Below are positions 3,126-12,903 of a stretch of DNA of 64,000 nucleotides, piece by piece. Under the pieces are notes generated by a model. The model ran no database searches. It saw only the letters and a list, made by a program, of their open reading frames with translations, and was not told where the DNA came from. Numbering within the stretch: the first letter of the stretch is position 1; every line of letters starts with the position of its first letter. The position numbers were made by a program, and so were the translations under genes. Location of the stretch: assembly GCA_945905835.1 (NCBI GenBank), contig CAMDQJ010000005.1, forward strand, positions 1-64,000, given 5' to 3'. Source of the stretch: Asaia bogorensis (lineage in GTDB: Bacteria; Pseudomonadota; Alphaproteobacteria; Reyranellales; Reyranellaceae).

Positions 3126-5227
3126 TGAAAGAGCCTCCTGTCGCGTCCCGACGTCCGGTCCGGCGCACGCTGCATGGCGTCACCGTTACCGACGACTATG
3201 CGTGGCTGAAGGACGAGAACTGGCAAAAGGTTCTCCGTGACCCCTCGCTTCTCGATCCGGATATCCGGTCGTACCTGGAGGCGGAGAACCGTTACACCGA
3301 GGCCCTCCTCGGCCCGACGCAGGCGCTGCAGAAGGTGCTGGTCGATGAGATGCGCGGGCGCATCAAGGAAGACGATTCCAGCGTTCCGGCGCCGGACGGG
3401 CCCTTTGCCTATCTGTGGAAGTACCGCGAGGGCGGCCAGCACGAGCTGATCGGCCGCACGCCGCGCGACGGTGGCGACGCCGAGGTCATCCTCGATGGCG
3501 ATGCCCTGGCCAAGACGTCCGACTACTTCAGGTTCGGCGGCACCCGGCATTCGCCGAACCATCTGCTGGAAGCCTGGAGTGCCGACCTGCGCGGCTCGGA
3601 ATATTTCACTCTCCGGGTGCGACGCTGGCAGAGCGGCGAGGATCTGCCCGACACGCTGACGCAAACCAGCGGCAGCGTCGTCTGGGGCCTCGACTCGACG
3701 TTTTTCTTCTATGTCGAGATCGATGAGAACCATCGGCCGCTGAAGGTCTTCCGGCATCGGCTGGGCACGCCGCAGGCCGACGACATCCTGGTCTACGAGG
3801 AAAAGGACACCGGCTGGTTCACGCGCATCGAGGAGAGCGCCAGCGGCCGCTTCTGCATCATCGCCGGCGGCGATCACGACACCTCCGAGGCGCGCCTCGT
3901 CGACCTCTCGACGCCCGACGCAACGCCGCGCCTCGTGGCGCCGCGCAAGAAGGGTGTCCGTTACAGCGTTGCAGACCGTGGCGACGAGCTGTTCATTCTC
4001 ACCAACGAGGGCGGCGCGATCGACTTTCGCATCGCCATTGCGCCGCTCGCGTCGCCGGGCCGTGCGCAGTGGCGCGAGCTGATCGCGCACCGTCCCGGCG
4101 TCTATATCCTCGGCCTGGAACTCTACGCCGGCCACCTGGTGCGACTGGAACGGGCGAATGCGCTGGCCTCGATCGTGATCCGCGCGCTTGCGGACGGCAG
4201 CGAGCACACCATCGCCTTCGACGAGGAGGCCTATTCGCTCGATTCAGTCAGCGGCTACGAATTCAACACCACAACTCTGCGCTTCTCCTATTCGTCGATG
4301 ACGACGCCGACCGAGATCTACGACTACGACATGGCGAGCCGCCAACGCACCTTGCGCAAGCGCCAGCAGATTCCCTCCGGCCATGATCCGGCCGCCTATG
4401 TCACGACGCGGATCGTCGCCACCTCGCACGACGGCGCCGAGGTTCCGGTGTCGATCCTGCACCGCCGCGACCTTTTACGCGACGGACGCGCACCGTTGCT
4501 GCTTTACGGCTACGGCTCCTACGGCATGGCGATGCCGGCGGCGTTCTCGGCCAACCGCCTGTCGCTGGTCGATCGCGGCTTCGTCTATGCCATCGCCCAT
4601 GTCCGGGGCGGCGCCGACAAGGGCTGGGCGTGGTATCTCGACGGCAAGCGCGACAGGAAGACCAACACCTTCGACGATTTCGCCGCCGCGGCCCGCGCCC
4701 TCATCGACCGCAAATACACCTCGGCCAGGCGCATCGTCGGCCACGGCGGAAGTGCCGGCGGCATGCTGATGGGCGCGGTCGCCAACCGGGCGGGCGACCT
4801 CTTCGCCGGCATCGTCGCGGAAGTGCCCTTCGTCGACGTGCTGAACACCATGCTCGACGACACCCTGCCACTGACGCCGCCGGAATGGCCGGAATGGGGA
4901 AACCCCATCACCGACGAAACGGCGTTTCGTTACATCCTCTCCTACTCGCCCTTCGACAATGTCACTGCAAAGGACTACCCCGCGATCCTGGCGATGGCGG
5001 GCCTGACCGATCCCCGCGTCACCTACTGGGAGCCCGCAAAGTGGGTCGCCCGCCTGCGCGCCACGATGGTTGCCGGCGGGCCGGTCCTATTGCGTACCAA
5101 CATGGGCGCCGGCCATGGCGGATCGTCGGGACGGTTCAACCGTCTGGACGAGGTGGCGATCGCCTACGCCTTTGCACTGCAAACAGTTGGGCTCGTACAA
5201 CCCGTCCGACCTGTCACACGCGCGTGA
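3125..5227 (+). CDS. Prolyl oligopeptidase family serine peptidase (S9A; oligopeptidase B-like)
   Basis: GHGGSAGGMLMGAVANRAGDLFAGIVAEVPFVD active-site region; GTG start overlapping the upstream stop (TAGTG). Confidence 0.9.
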   Translation: MKEPPVASRRPVRRTLHGVTVTDDYAWLKDENWQKVLRDPSLLDPDIRSYLEAENRYTEALLGPTQALQKVLVDEMRGRIKEDDSSVPAPDGPFAYLWKYREGGQHELIGRTPRDGGDAEVILDGDALAKTSDYFRFGGTRHSPNHLLEAWSADLRGSEYFTLRVRRWQSGEDLPDTLTQTSGSVVWGLDSTFFFYVEIDENHRPLKVFRHRLGTPQADDILVYEEKDTGWFTRIEESASGRFCIIAGGDHDTSEARLVDLSTPDATPRLVAPRKKGVRYSVADRGDELFILTNEGGAIDFRIAIAPLASPGRAQWRELIAHRPGVYILGLELYAGHLVRLERANALASIVIRALADGSEHTIAFDEEAYSLDSVSGYEFNTTTLRFSYSSMTTPTEIYDYDMASRQRTLRKRQQIPSGHDPAAYVTTRIVATSHDGAEVPVSILHRRDLLRDGRAPLLLYGYGSYGMAMPAAFSANRLSLVDRGFVYAIAHVRGGADKGWAWYLDGKRDRKTNTFDDFAAAARALIDRKYTSARRIVGHGGSAGGMLMGAVANRAGDLFAGIVAEVPFVDVLNTMLDDTLPLTPPEWPEWGNPITDETAFRYILSYSPFDNVTAKDYPAILAMAGLTDPRVTYWEPAKWVARLRATMVAGGPVLLRTNMGAGHGGSSGRFNRLDEVAIAYAFALQTVGLVQPVRPVTRA

Positions 5228-8970: not shown

Positions 8971-9010
8971 ACCTTCAAACCGACGCCAACAGGCACGCCG
9001 CGCTGCAGGC

Positions 9011-10054
9011 TCACGGCGCGCGCGCGAGGCCTTCGGCCATCGCCGCCAACAGGCCCGCCTCGTTCATTTCGAGTCCCTTGCGCCGACCCCACAACCGGTG
9101 ATGCCGGCCGAGAAGGTCGAGTGCTTGCACCTTGTCGAGCCGCCGCCAGCGCAGCACGGTACGGCGGTCAGCGTCGATGTCGATCCATTGGATGCTATTC
9201 AGCGTGTCGTCGTCGATTTCGTTCACGCCGCAGTGGCCGCCATCCGGCCGGTAAAGCCGCCGCAGGCTACCGTAGGCAATGCACTCGACTTCACTCAACA
9301 CTTTGCCCGGCGTCAGCCCGATGCGCTCGAAGCGCGCTCGTACGTGACGCGCTATGGCGGCCTTGATGTCGGCCCCTCTCAGGAGCTCGTCCTGGCACCG
9401 ACCGCCGCTCGATGGCGGAAAGCCGGCACGCATCGCGGCAGCGCGGCCGTTGAAGTCGACGGTGTATTCAGCGGCAAAGCGCGCACGCCGGGAAAAGCTG
9501 GCGGAAAGGCGTTGGGCAGCCTCCCGGCGCGTCGGCGGCGGCAGTGCGTGCATTCGTGCCGCGGCTATGTCTTCGGCCAATCCGTCGGCGGGTCCGGCGC
9601 CTTGCTGCCCCTCCGGCTCGTCGCCCCACATTCTGAAGTGCTGCATCAGCAGCTTCAGTGCCGCGAGCTTGCCGGTGCGGCGTATCCGAATGACCTTGCC
9701 GCGCGGCCGGGCGAGGGGATCGTAGAGGCGAAAGCCGATGAGCGCGGCCTCGTCGATCCGGTGCATCGGCTTCAGGCGGCCCTTTGCATCAAACAGGCGC
9801 CGAAGGTCGGCGAAGGCTACGCGTGCCGCCTCGTCGAGAATACGCGCTCCTTCGTCCTCGATGGCCTGGAAGCGCGCGTCCCGCTGGGCGGCCAGCCTCG
9901 CCTGGACCTCCGGACATCTCAGCATCGCTTCGCGGCCGCGATCGGCCTCGCCGGCCGGCCAACCGGCGTGGAGGGCGGCCTTCCTGCCATTGCCGGAACG
10001 ACTGTATTCCTCGACGAACAGCGCCATGCGCGGTGTGAGCGTACCCATGGCCAC
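9011..10054 (-). CDS. Tandem-duplicated phage terminase small-subunit-like protein (two Terminase_2-like domains)
   Basis: Repeat 1 LTPRMALFVEEYSRSGNGRKAALHAGW...VAFADLRRLFDAKGRLKPMHRIDEAA...KLAALKLLMQHFRMW; repeat 2 RRARFAAEYTVDFNGRAAAMRAGF...IAYGSLRRLYRPDGG...EIDDDTLNSI...KVQALDLLGRHHRLW. Confidence 0.75.
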   Translation of the reverse strand: MAMGTLTPRMALFVEEYSRSGNGRKAALHAGWPAGEADRGREAMLRCPEVQARLAAQRDARFQAIEDEGARILDEAARVAFADLRRLFDAKGRLKPMHRIDEAALIGFRLYDPLARPRGKVIRIRRTGKLAALKLLMQHFRMWGDEPEGQQGAGPADGLAEDIAAARMHALPPPTRREAAQRLSASFSRRARFAAEYTVDFNGRAAAMRAGFPPSSGGRCQDELLRGADIKAAIARHVRARFERIGLTPGKVLSEVECIAYGSLRRLYRPDGGHCGVNEIDDDTLNSIQWIDIDADRRTVLRWRRLDKVQALDLLGRHHRLWGRRKGLEMNEAGLLAAMAEGLARAP

Positions 10055-10068
10055 GCATTAGGGGGAAT

Positions 10069-10100
10069 TGTGACTTTGGATTGCAAGAGGTGTGACTTTG
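10069..10100. repeat. Two direct repeats TGTGACTTTG with 22-bp period upstream of the terminase-like gene
   Basis: TGTGACTTTG at 10069-10078 and 10091-10100. Confidence 0.85.
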
Positions 10101-10182
10101 AAAATGCGGCAGCCAGCCGGCGATGCGCGCAACCTTTCGCCGCATTAGACGTTATCGCCGCGTAAATATAGGGAGCGCGCCC

Positions 10183-11040
10183 ATGGTGGATACCGTCATC
10201 GTCGAGAACGAACAGACCCCGGCGTCCGCCATTTCCTGGCCGGCGATCATCGCCGGCGCGGCGGTCACGGCGGCCTTGTCGTTGCTGCTGTTGGCATTGG
10301 GCAGCGGTATCGGTTTCAGCGTCATGAACCCGTGGTCGACCGGCGGCAGCATCGAGACGACGAAGGCCGCCACGGTGGCCGGCATATACCTCACCTTGGC
10401 GGCGGTAATGGCCTCGGCGGTCGGCGGCTACCTCGCGGGCCGCCTGCGCCATCTATGGCTCGGCACGCATCCTCACGAGGCTTTCTTTCGCGACACGGCC
10501 CACGATCTGATCTCGTGGGCGGTCGCGACGTTGGCGGGTGCCGCGGTCCTTGGATCGGCGGCCGCCAGCATCACCGGTGGTGCCGCGAAGGAAGCAGCCT
10601 ATGGCGAGATCGTGCAGGCGCGCGGTGGCGCGTTTCCGGCGCTGACGGATCACCTCTTCACGTACGACTACGTCGCCGTCTCGAAGGCTCAGGGCGGACA
10701 GCCCAACGCCGGCATCGCGCGCAGCTATGACGGCGACCGCGCCGCCGCCGCCCGCATCCTCGGCCCTGACGCTCGTCGGTGGTCAGGGCGCGGCCGTGTA
10801 GCGCTGAACGGCCTGGCGGTGATCGTCGCGGCGCGTACCGGCCTCTCGTTTCCGGAGGCCGAAAAACGCGTGGCGGCCGTCGAGGCTGACGCGCGCAATG
10901 CCGCCGAGACTGCGCGACACGTGGCGATGATGCTCTCGTTCTGGCTGGTGGCGTCGATGCTGGCAGGAGCACTGGCATCGAGCCTGGCTGCGTGGGAAGG
11001 CGGCGCCGTGCGTGACGGCCGCCTGAAATACGATCGTTAA
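10183..11040 (+). CDS. Integral membrane protein of unknown function (PhnA-like hypothetical family)
   Basis: ISWPAIIAGAAVTAALSLLLLALGSGIGFS, several TM segments; ATG at 10183 after GGGAG-like RBS. Confidence 0.7.
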   Translation: MVDTVIVENEQTPASAISWPAIIAGAAVTAALSLLLLALGSGIGFSVMNPWSTGGSIETTKAATVAGIYLTLAAVMASAVGGYLAGRLRHLWLGTHPHEAFFRDTAHDLISWAVATLAGAAVLGSAAASITGGAAKEAAYGEIVQARGGAFPALTDHLFTYDYVAVSKAQGGQPNAGIARSYDGDRAAAARILGPDARRWSGRGRVALNGLAVIVAARTGLSFPEAEKRVAAVEADARNAAETARHVAMMLSFWLVASMLAGALASSLAAWEGGAVRDGRLKYDR

Positions 11041-11949: not shown

Positions 11950-12903
11950 CTAACGATACCCTGCCGCCTGCAACTCAAACGACTCGGCATAGCGGCCGTG
12001 CTGCGCCACCAACTCGTCGTGCGCGCCGGCAGCTTCCACCTTGCCGTCGGCCAGGACAAGCATGCGGTCCGCCATGCGAACGCTGGAGAAGCGGTGCGAA
12101 ATGAGGACGCCGGTCTGGCCCTTGCTCAGCTCCTTGAAGCGCTGGAAGACCTCGAACTCGGCCCGCGCGTCGAGCGCCGCCGTCGGCTCGTCGAGGATCA
12201 GCACCTCGGCCTCGCGCATATAGTCGAGCTCGCGCCGCTCGGGCGTGCGGCCGAAATCGGGCGAATAGCTCTGGGCGTTGAAATGCGCCTCGCCGAGGAA
12301 GGCCGGCACCAGCGTCAGCATCAAGAGCGCGATCAGCCACGGCGCGAACAGGACCAGGCCAGCGGCCAGGCTCATCACCGTCACCATGTCCTGCGCCTGG
12401 CCGAACAACTGGCTCATCAGGGCCATCCGCCCGCTGGTCTGGCGGCGCGCGCGCTCGAGCTGGTCCTGGAACTCGGCGTCTTCGAAATCCTCGAGGTCGA
12501 GGGTCGCGGCATGCTCCATCAGGCGGATGCTGGAAGCGTTGGTCACACGCTCCGACAGCAGGCTGTCGAGGAAGGTGACCAGCCGCCCCAGCAGGTCGGC
12601 CAGGACCGCGAGGGCGAATTCGCCGAGCAGCAGAACGGTCAGCCAGTTGACCTTGCCGCTGGCCAGCCACGCCTGCGGCGTCGCGGGCCGGTCGGGCGCC
12701 TGCACCAGCAGCACGACATCGTCGATGATCAGCTTGGCGATATAGAGCGTGACGACAGGCAGCAGTGCGCGGAACACGCGCAGCACCAGCGAAGCCACCG
12801 TCAGGCCCGGGCTGGTGTCCCACACCATCGCCAGGAACGGCCACAGGTTGCGTAGCGCGCCGACCCGCTCCTTGAAGGATCCGGCGTTGGCTGTGCGCGC
12901 CAT
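11950..12903 (-). pseudogene. ABC exporter (permease-ATPase fusion) with internal in-frame deletion; lacks Walker A, Q-loop and signature
   Basis: N-terminal TMD joins directly to EVLILDEPTAALDA (Walker B) at ...ERRELDYMRE|AEVLILDEP...; 317 aa where about 600 aa is typical for the family. Confidence 0.7.

Follow-up and report, generated by a model that had tools for sequence, protein, structure and literature searches.

A gene for two joined terminase small subunit units, most likely a phage leftover, and its shared leader in an alphaproteobacterial genome

Why does a bacterial chromosome carry, in the midst of host genes, a lone gene for a protein made of two terminase small subunit (TerS) units? 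The preliminary description of the window (the whole stretch of 64,000 nucleotides analyzed here) had pointed out such a gene and had suggested that its product could be a domesticated DNA-binding regulator of the chromosome. Our analysis indicates that this unusual gene is real and, most likely, left over from a phage. We estimate at about 0.6 the probability that it is a relic of a diverged packaging lineage of a tailed phage (or of a phage satellite), scattered in units at whose head stands a conserved cis-site. The wider picture, with other terminase relics in the genome and a leader sequence shared between loci, was absent from that earlier reading of the window.

Two Terminase_2 units in one reading frame

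The locus of the two-unit gene is called C5 in what follows, and the other loci C1, C9, C13, C26, C35, C40, and C64. The gene occupies positions 9011..10048 of the minus strand, as delimited by its open reading frame and by Pfam and PHROG profiles, and encodes 345 aa from an ATG at 10048. Its stop end is at 9011 and its start either a GTG at 10054 or, more likely, this ATG, which gives a protein of 345–347 aa. The frame was 3-periodic (GC of 0.73, 0.52, and 0.79 at codon positions 1, 2, and 3) and had the top score among the six frames. A chance ORF in GC-rich DNA was ruled out by this periodicity and by the profile matches. The codon usage was atypical for the locus, with a GC3 of 0.79 as compared with 0.91–0.93 in dctP and dctQ.

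The N-terminal unit (about 9626..10039, minus strand; residues 6–142 from the GTG start) matched Pfam Terminase_2 (PF03592) with 52.1 bits (E 1.4e-13), and the C-terminal unit (9062..9484, minus strand; residues 191–331 of the whole protein) with 54.9 bits (E 2e-14), each half separately exceeding the curated cut-off of 26.1 bits. Both halves also matched PHROG 51 ('terminase small subunit'), and an alignment of the two over 136 aa had 35% identity (E 2e-22). Thus, the protein does consist of two related yet diverged Terminase_2 units, as the preliminary description had proposed.

In the structural models, the N-terminal HTH (pLDDT 84–95) superposed on the DNA-binding domain of SF6 TerS (4zc3) with an rmsd of 0.9 and a TM score of 0.90 by target. 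The C-terminal half, modeled with the N-terminal half as sole alignment partner, showed, with moderate confidence, a HTH, a helical core, a beta hairpin, and a C-terminal helix, and the superposition of its HTH was weaker (TM score of 0.78 by target). A model of the full chain made without an alignment had a mean pLDDT of 46.9, its usable part being about the first 50 residues. The named viral fold matches were for the most part terminase small subunits, none of them at E < 0.001. Both units are Terminase_2 domains with a predicted TerS-type HTH fold.

Before the linker, the N-terminal unit closes with a tail like that of TerS (GLAEDIAAAR; cf. LAGLAEDIAEIR of C9). This tail argues for the joining of two whole TerS proteins rather than for a duplication of the HTH alone, and by its sequence the C5 protein resembles two complete TerS chains linked end to end. 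It belongs by Pfam and PHROG to the same family as the known Terminase_2 small subunits (PF03592; SF6/SPP1-type G1P; PDB 3zqp, 3zqq, 2cmp, 4zc3) and has by sequence and model the same HTH fold, but these proteins have one unit per chain and the C5 protein has two. TerS protomers are described as 15–21 kDa single units that assemble into rings (PMC9611059). With two units covalently joined in one TerS chain, both the stoichiometry of the ring and the distance between paired recognition sites would become open to direct test. A defense gene was ruled out, since the PADLOC models of anti-phage defense gave no match to the C5 protein at E 0.01.

A short, probably foreign segment among host genes

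On one flank of the gene are found genes for an S9 peptidase, DctP, DctQ, and DctM (Pfam), and on the other flank the gene of an unassigned membrane protein and genes for a glyoxalase, a polysaccharide deacetylase, and PhyH (the last three by Pfam). All those of the ten nearest ORFs that had a Pfam match were host genes, and integrase, regulator, or replication genes were not found among the ten. No large terminase (TerL), portal, capsid, or GTA gene was present at the locus, which in the lack of adjoining TerL, portal, and capsid genes differs from those of the Terminase_2 small subunits cited above. An adjoining large terminase is usual, though not universal, for TerS (PMC9611059).

Nucleotide similarity to congeneric genomes stopped at about 8976, the end of dctM, and resumed at about 10178. 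The segment in between (8977..10177, ~1.2 kb) had no counterpart in 64 congeneric genomes, and no ortholog of the C5 gene was found in these 64 other genomes of the genus. Because relatives have dctM and the membrane-protein gene at different places, and variable DNA after dctM, the 1.2 kb is an estimate of the extent of foreign DNA and not a proven insertion. A prophage just missed was ruled out, as the C5 gene has host genes on both sides and no further phage genes around it, and the foreign segment does not exceed about 1.2 kb. The gene is indeed, as first described, a stand-alone one outside any recognizable prophage. Its annotated neighbors are a TRAP transporter and other host genes.

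Elsewhere in the window, an ORF at 11950–12903 (minus strand) appeared to encode an ABC exporter in which the N-terminal membrane part is seemingly joined straight to the Walker-B end of the ATPase domain, as if internally deleted. It had no Pfam match at 0.001.

Terminase remains elsewhere in the genome

The genome is a draft of 4.07 Mb in 185 contigs (96.5% complete). It contains six terminase loci on six contigs (C5, C26, C35, C40, C9, and C64), of which four are broken, while the frames of C5 and C26 are intact. C26 is an intact solo TerS gene between the gene of a Bug-type binding protein and hisH (names given by eye), and C35 is a second two-unit TerS gene, with a frameshift in its C unit. 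At C40, an N-truncated TerS is followed by a 560-aa, full-length TerL-like ORF, and this pair is flanked by polA and by the gene of a hydrolase (names again by eye). A C-terminal stub of TerS (about 80 aa) is left at C9, and C64 comprises ~23 codons from the start of TerS together with an inverted fragment and the C-terminus of TerL. The terS-terL order is thus kept at C40, and at C64 the start of TerS lies beside a rearranged TerL. Since the draft is divided into 185 contigs, caution is required with the C35 frameshift and with any lack of phage genes close to the end of a contig.

The TerL of C40 shared 43–47% identity with the TerL of phages AF and TL-2011b. In these podophages and in the myxophage Mx4, terS lies directly before terL and encodes a single-unit TerS, unlike the C5 gene.

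The mostly broken sister copies, the absence of the C5 gene from congeners, its atypical codons, and the TerS-TerL remains at C40 and C64 together point to decayed packaging genes of a phage or satellite. The intact frames of C5 and C26 leave room for a retained function.

A leader with paired repeats, shared by six sites

Directly upstream of terS at C5, C26, C35, and C64, we found a leader of ~47 bp with two CAAAGTCACA-like repeats, the consensus of the four being TTCAAAGTCACACCTCTTGCAATCCTAAATCACAACTTCCCCTAAATG. At C5, the leader (10050..10104, minus strand) is directly upstream of the start codon and contains two exact CAAAGTCACA repeats, 22 bp apart (10091–10100 and 10069–10078, minus strand). 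Searches with a pattern and with a sequence-only model disclosed the leader at two sites devoid of TerS, C13 and C1, the latter with an E of 3e-10 even though it had been left out of the model. The C13 leader precedes a 503-aa ORF that weakly matched a phage endolysin family (phrog_1044, E 5.5e-4). The C1 leader is followed by no clear gene and no recognizable phage gene, and this counts against the relic reading. The spacing of the repeats is 22 bp at C5, C35, C13, and C64, and 27 bp at C26, and the leader points towards the ORF in all five sites that have one. The C13 leader was 98% identical to that of C64 over 43 bp and 94% identical to that of C1 over 47 bp, in surrounding DNA that was unrelated in both cases.

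Among the 64 congeners, a fixed-spacing pattern of the leader gave no match with up to 3 mismatches, and the exact pattern occurred, in a class sample of 387 genomes, in this genome only. The leader model did not match the terminase regions of phages AF, TL-2011b, and Mx4. No sigma-70 promoter was found in the leader by a consensus scan, and a sigma-54 reading (AGTCAC-N5-TTGCA, by eye) was dropped because C26, C35, and C1 lack an intact −12 part.

Some further features of these sites were observed. An inverted repeat, AGCTATAGAAAGCTGTTCTATAGCTC, lies directly before the N-truncated TerS of C40 (L018, about 4640–4690), at the expected position of a leader. Directly before the leader of C26 (L008, about 10020–10330), we noted by eye a pair of small ORFs resembling pilin genes, and a hairpin with a T run that resembles a terminator. 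The 503-aa ORF of C13 (L029, 3135–4646, minus strand) is the sole copy in the genome and has genes for DUF433 and DUF5615 proteins as upstream neighbors.

Possible roles of the leader and of the C5 protein

TerS recognition sites can be in or beside terS. In phage lambda, cosB is located just before the TerS gene. The pac site of P22 is located within its TerS gene (PMC9611059). These precedents make a packaging-site role attractive for the leader, whereas a promoter or the end of an element would better explain its presence at C13 and C1. In the parent element, the leader was probably a TerS recognition (packaging) site or the promoter/operator of the TerS operon. In a family for which specific sites proved hard to demonstrate in vitro, the leader offers a candidate for the recognized sequence, and with its paired repeats it is the shared feature that best favors a retained function.

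The occurrence of the same leader before TerS, before the 503-aa ORF of C13, and alone at C1, with unrelated DNA to its left, could mean that it forms the end of a small mobile element with passenger genes, TerS included. This appears quite improbable, as the leader model found no partner end in this genome, no recombinase is linked to the leader, and the latter is always directed at the ORF, in a promoter-like manner.

Some satellites redirect packaging by their helper phage, and by analogy with those that encode TerS, a solo TerS and its recognition site could direct the TerL of a helper phage onto chromosomal DNA, which would be packaged from these sites. The site is directly beside terS in four of the six loci, and a full-length TerL-like ORF exists elsewhere in the genome, at C40. 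However, no integrase or other satellite gene was seen beside the C5 gene, no helper phage was identified, and the leader occurs without terS at C13 and C1, so that we give little credence to such a packaging hijack. Some phage-inducible chromosomal islands (PICI) also carry a TerS that redirects packaging. They have TerS in common with C5, but their integrase, regulator, and replication genes were not seen there.

Another possibility, which we consider doubtful, is an autorepressor or chromosomal regulator: the two-unit protein would bind to the repeats in the leader before its own gene, and perhaps at the other five sites. Direct repeats with a spacing of 22 bp, or about two helical turns, would be a fitting target for a pair of linked HTHs. 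The 345-codon frame is open and retains both HTHs, an exact repeat pair directly precedes the start codon of the C5 gene, and the leader, common to six sites in one genome, is co-oriented with an ORF wherever there is one. Against this, the gene is conserved in none of the 64 congeners, its sister genes are decaying, two of the six leaders precede no TerS, and the spacing of the repeats is 27 bp at C26. The lack of a congeneric ortholog and the mostly broken sister copies (C35, C9, C64, C40) are what one would expect from the decay of foreign packaging genes and not from a conserved regulator, and we therefore do not follow the suggestion of a domesticated chromosomal regulator; a regulatory role of the present protein is possible but unsupported. 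It is also unlikely that the gene by itself forms a mobile or domesticated system, whose TerS with two HTHs would recognize ~47-bp paired-repeat sites dispersed around the chromosome, and would either regulate these or mark them for packaging.

Relatives and history of the fusion

The rarity of the two-unit form was assessed in the genus, in the class sample, and in annotated phage and plasmid collections. Terminase_2 had no match in 58 of 65 congeneric genomes, and the rest contained no two-unit copy. No two-unit relative was found in the 387 genomes of the class sample, nor in the annotated phage and plasmid collections; a plasmid origin was rejected on the latter ground. Neither a two-unit TerS nor the leader was found in any complete phage or satellite of the annotated phage collection, which speaks against the relic reading. 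A scan of a larger genome collection with the C5 protein, by short exact peptide patterns that reach close relatives only, yielded no relative, and nothing directly relevant was found in the literature on stand-alone or fused TerS. Two relatives inspected elsewhere, G370 and G113, have single TerS genes adjoining TerL.

The tree of TerS units placed the N-units of C5 and of C35 in one group (95/93) and separated the units of this genome only weakly from phage TerS (81/77). The matching units of C5 and C35 were 36% and 42% identical. The grouping of the N-units indicates that the fusion is probably older than the split between the two genes, and most likely it arose once, before C5 and C35 parted.

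A history in keeping with the relic reading would start from an element in which a cis-acting site, the ~47-bp leader and its CAAAGTCACA-like repeats, immediately preceded TerS. The next step would have been the in-frame fusion of two TerS genes, after which the fused gene would have given rise to at least two separate copies (C5 and C35). Related elements may have entered the strain, or spread in it, several times, and would have been worn down to single genes or stubs, often with retention of the leader. We infer a phage origin of the fused form and a loss of packaging by the present protein. RcGTA gp1, from a gene transfer agent, is likewise a small terminase kept in an alphaproteobacterial chromosome, but it is devoid of the N-terminal DNA-binding domain (PMC6854486), whereas the C5 protein keeps two HTHs and has no GTA genes at its locus. 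Even if only a relic, the C5 gene is a record of a packaging lineage that repeatedly entered or spread, and decayed, and of which the annotated phage collection showed no member.

With six Terminase_2 matches, this genome (G000) had the highest number in the genus (0–2 in the others). Its size of 4.07 Mb is near the small end of the genus, the other genomes measuring 3.8–9.8 Mb and most of them 5–8 Mb.
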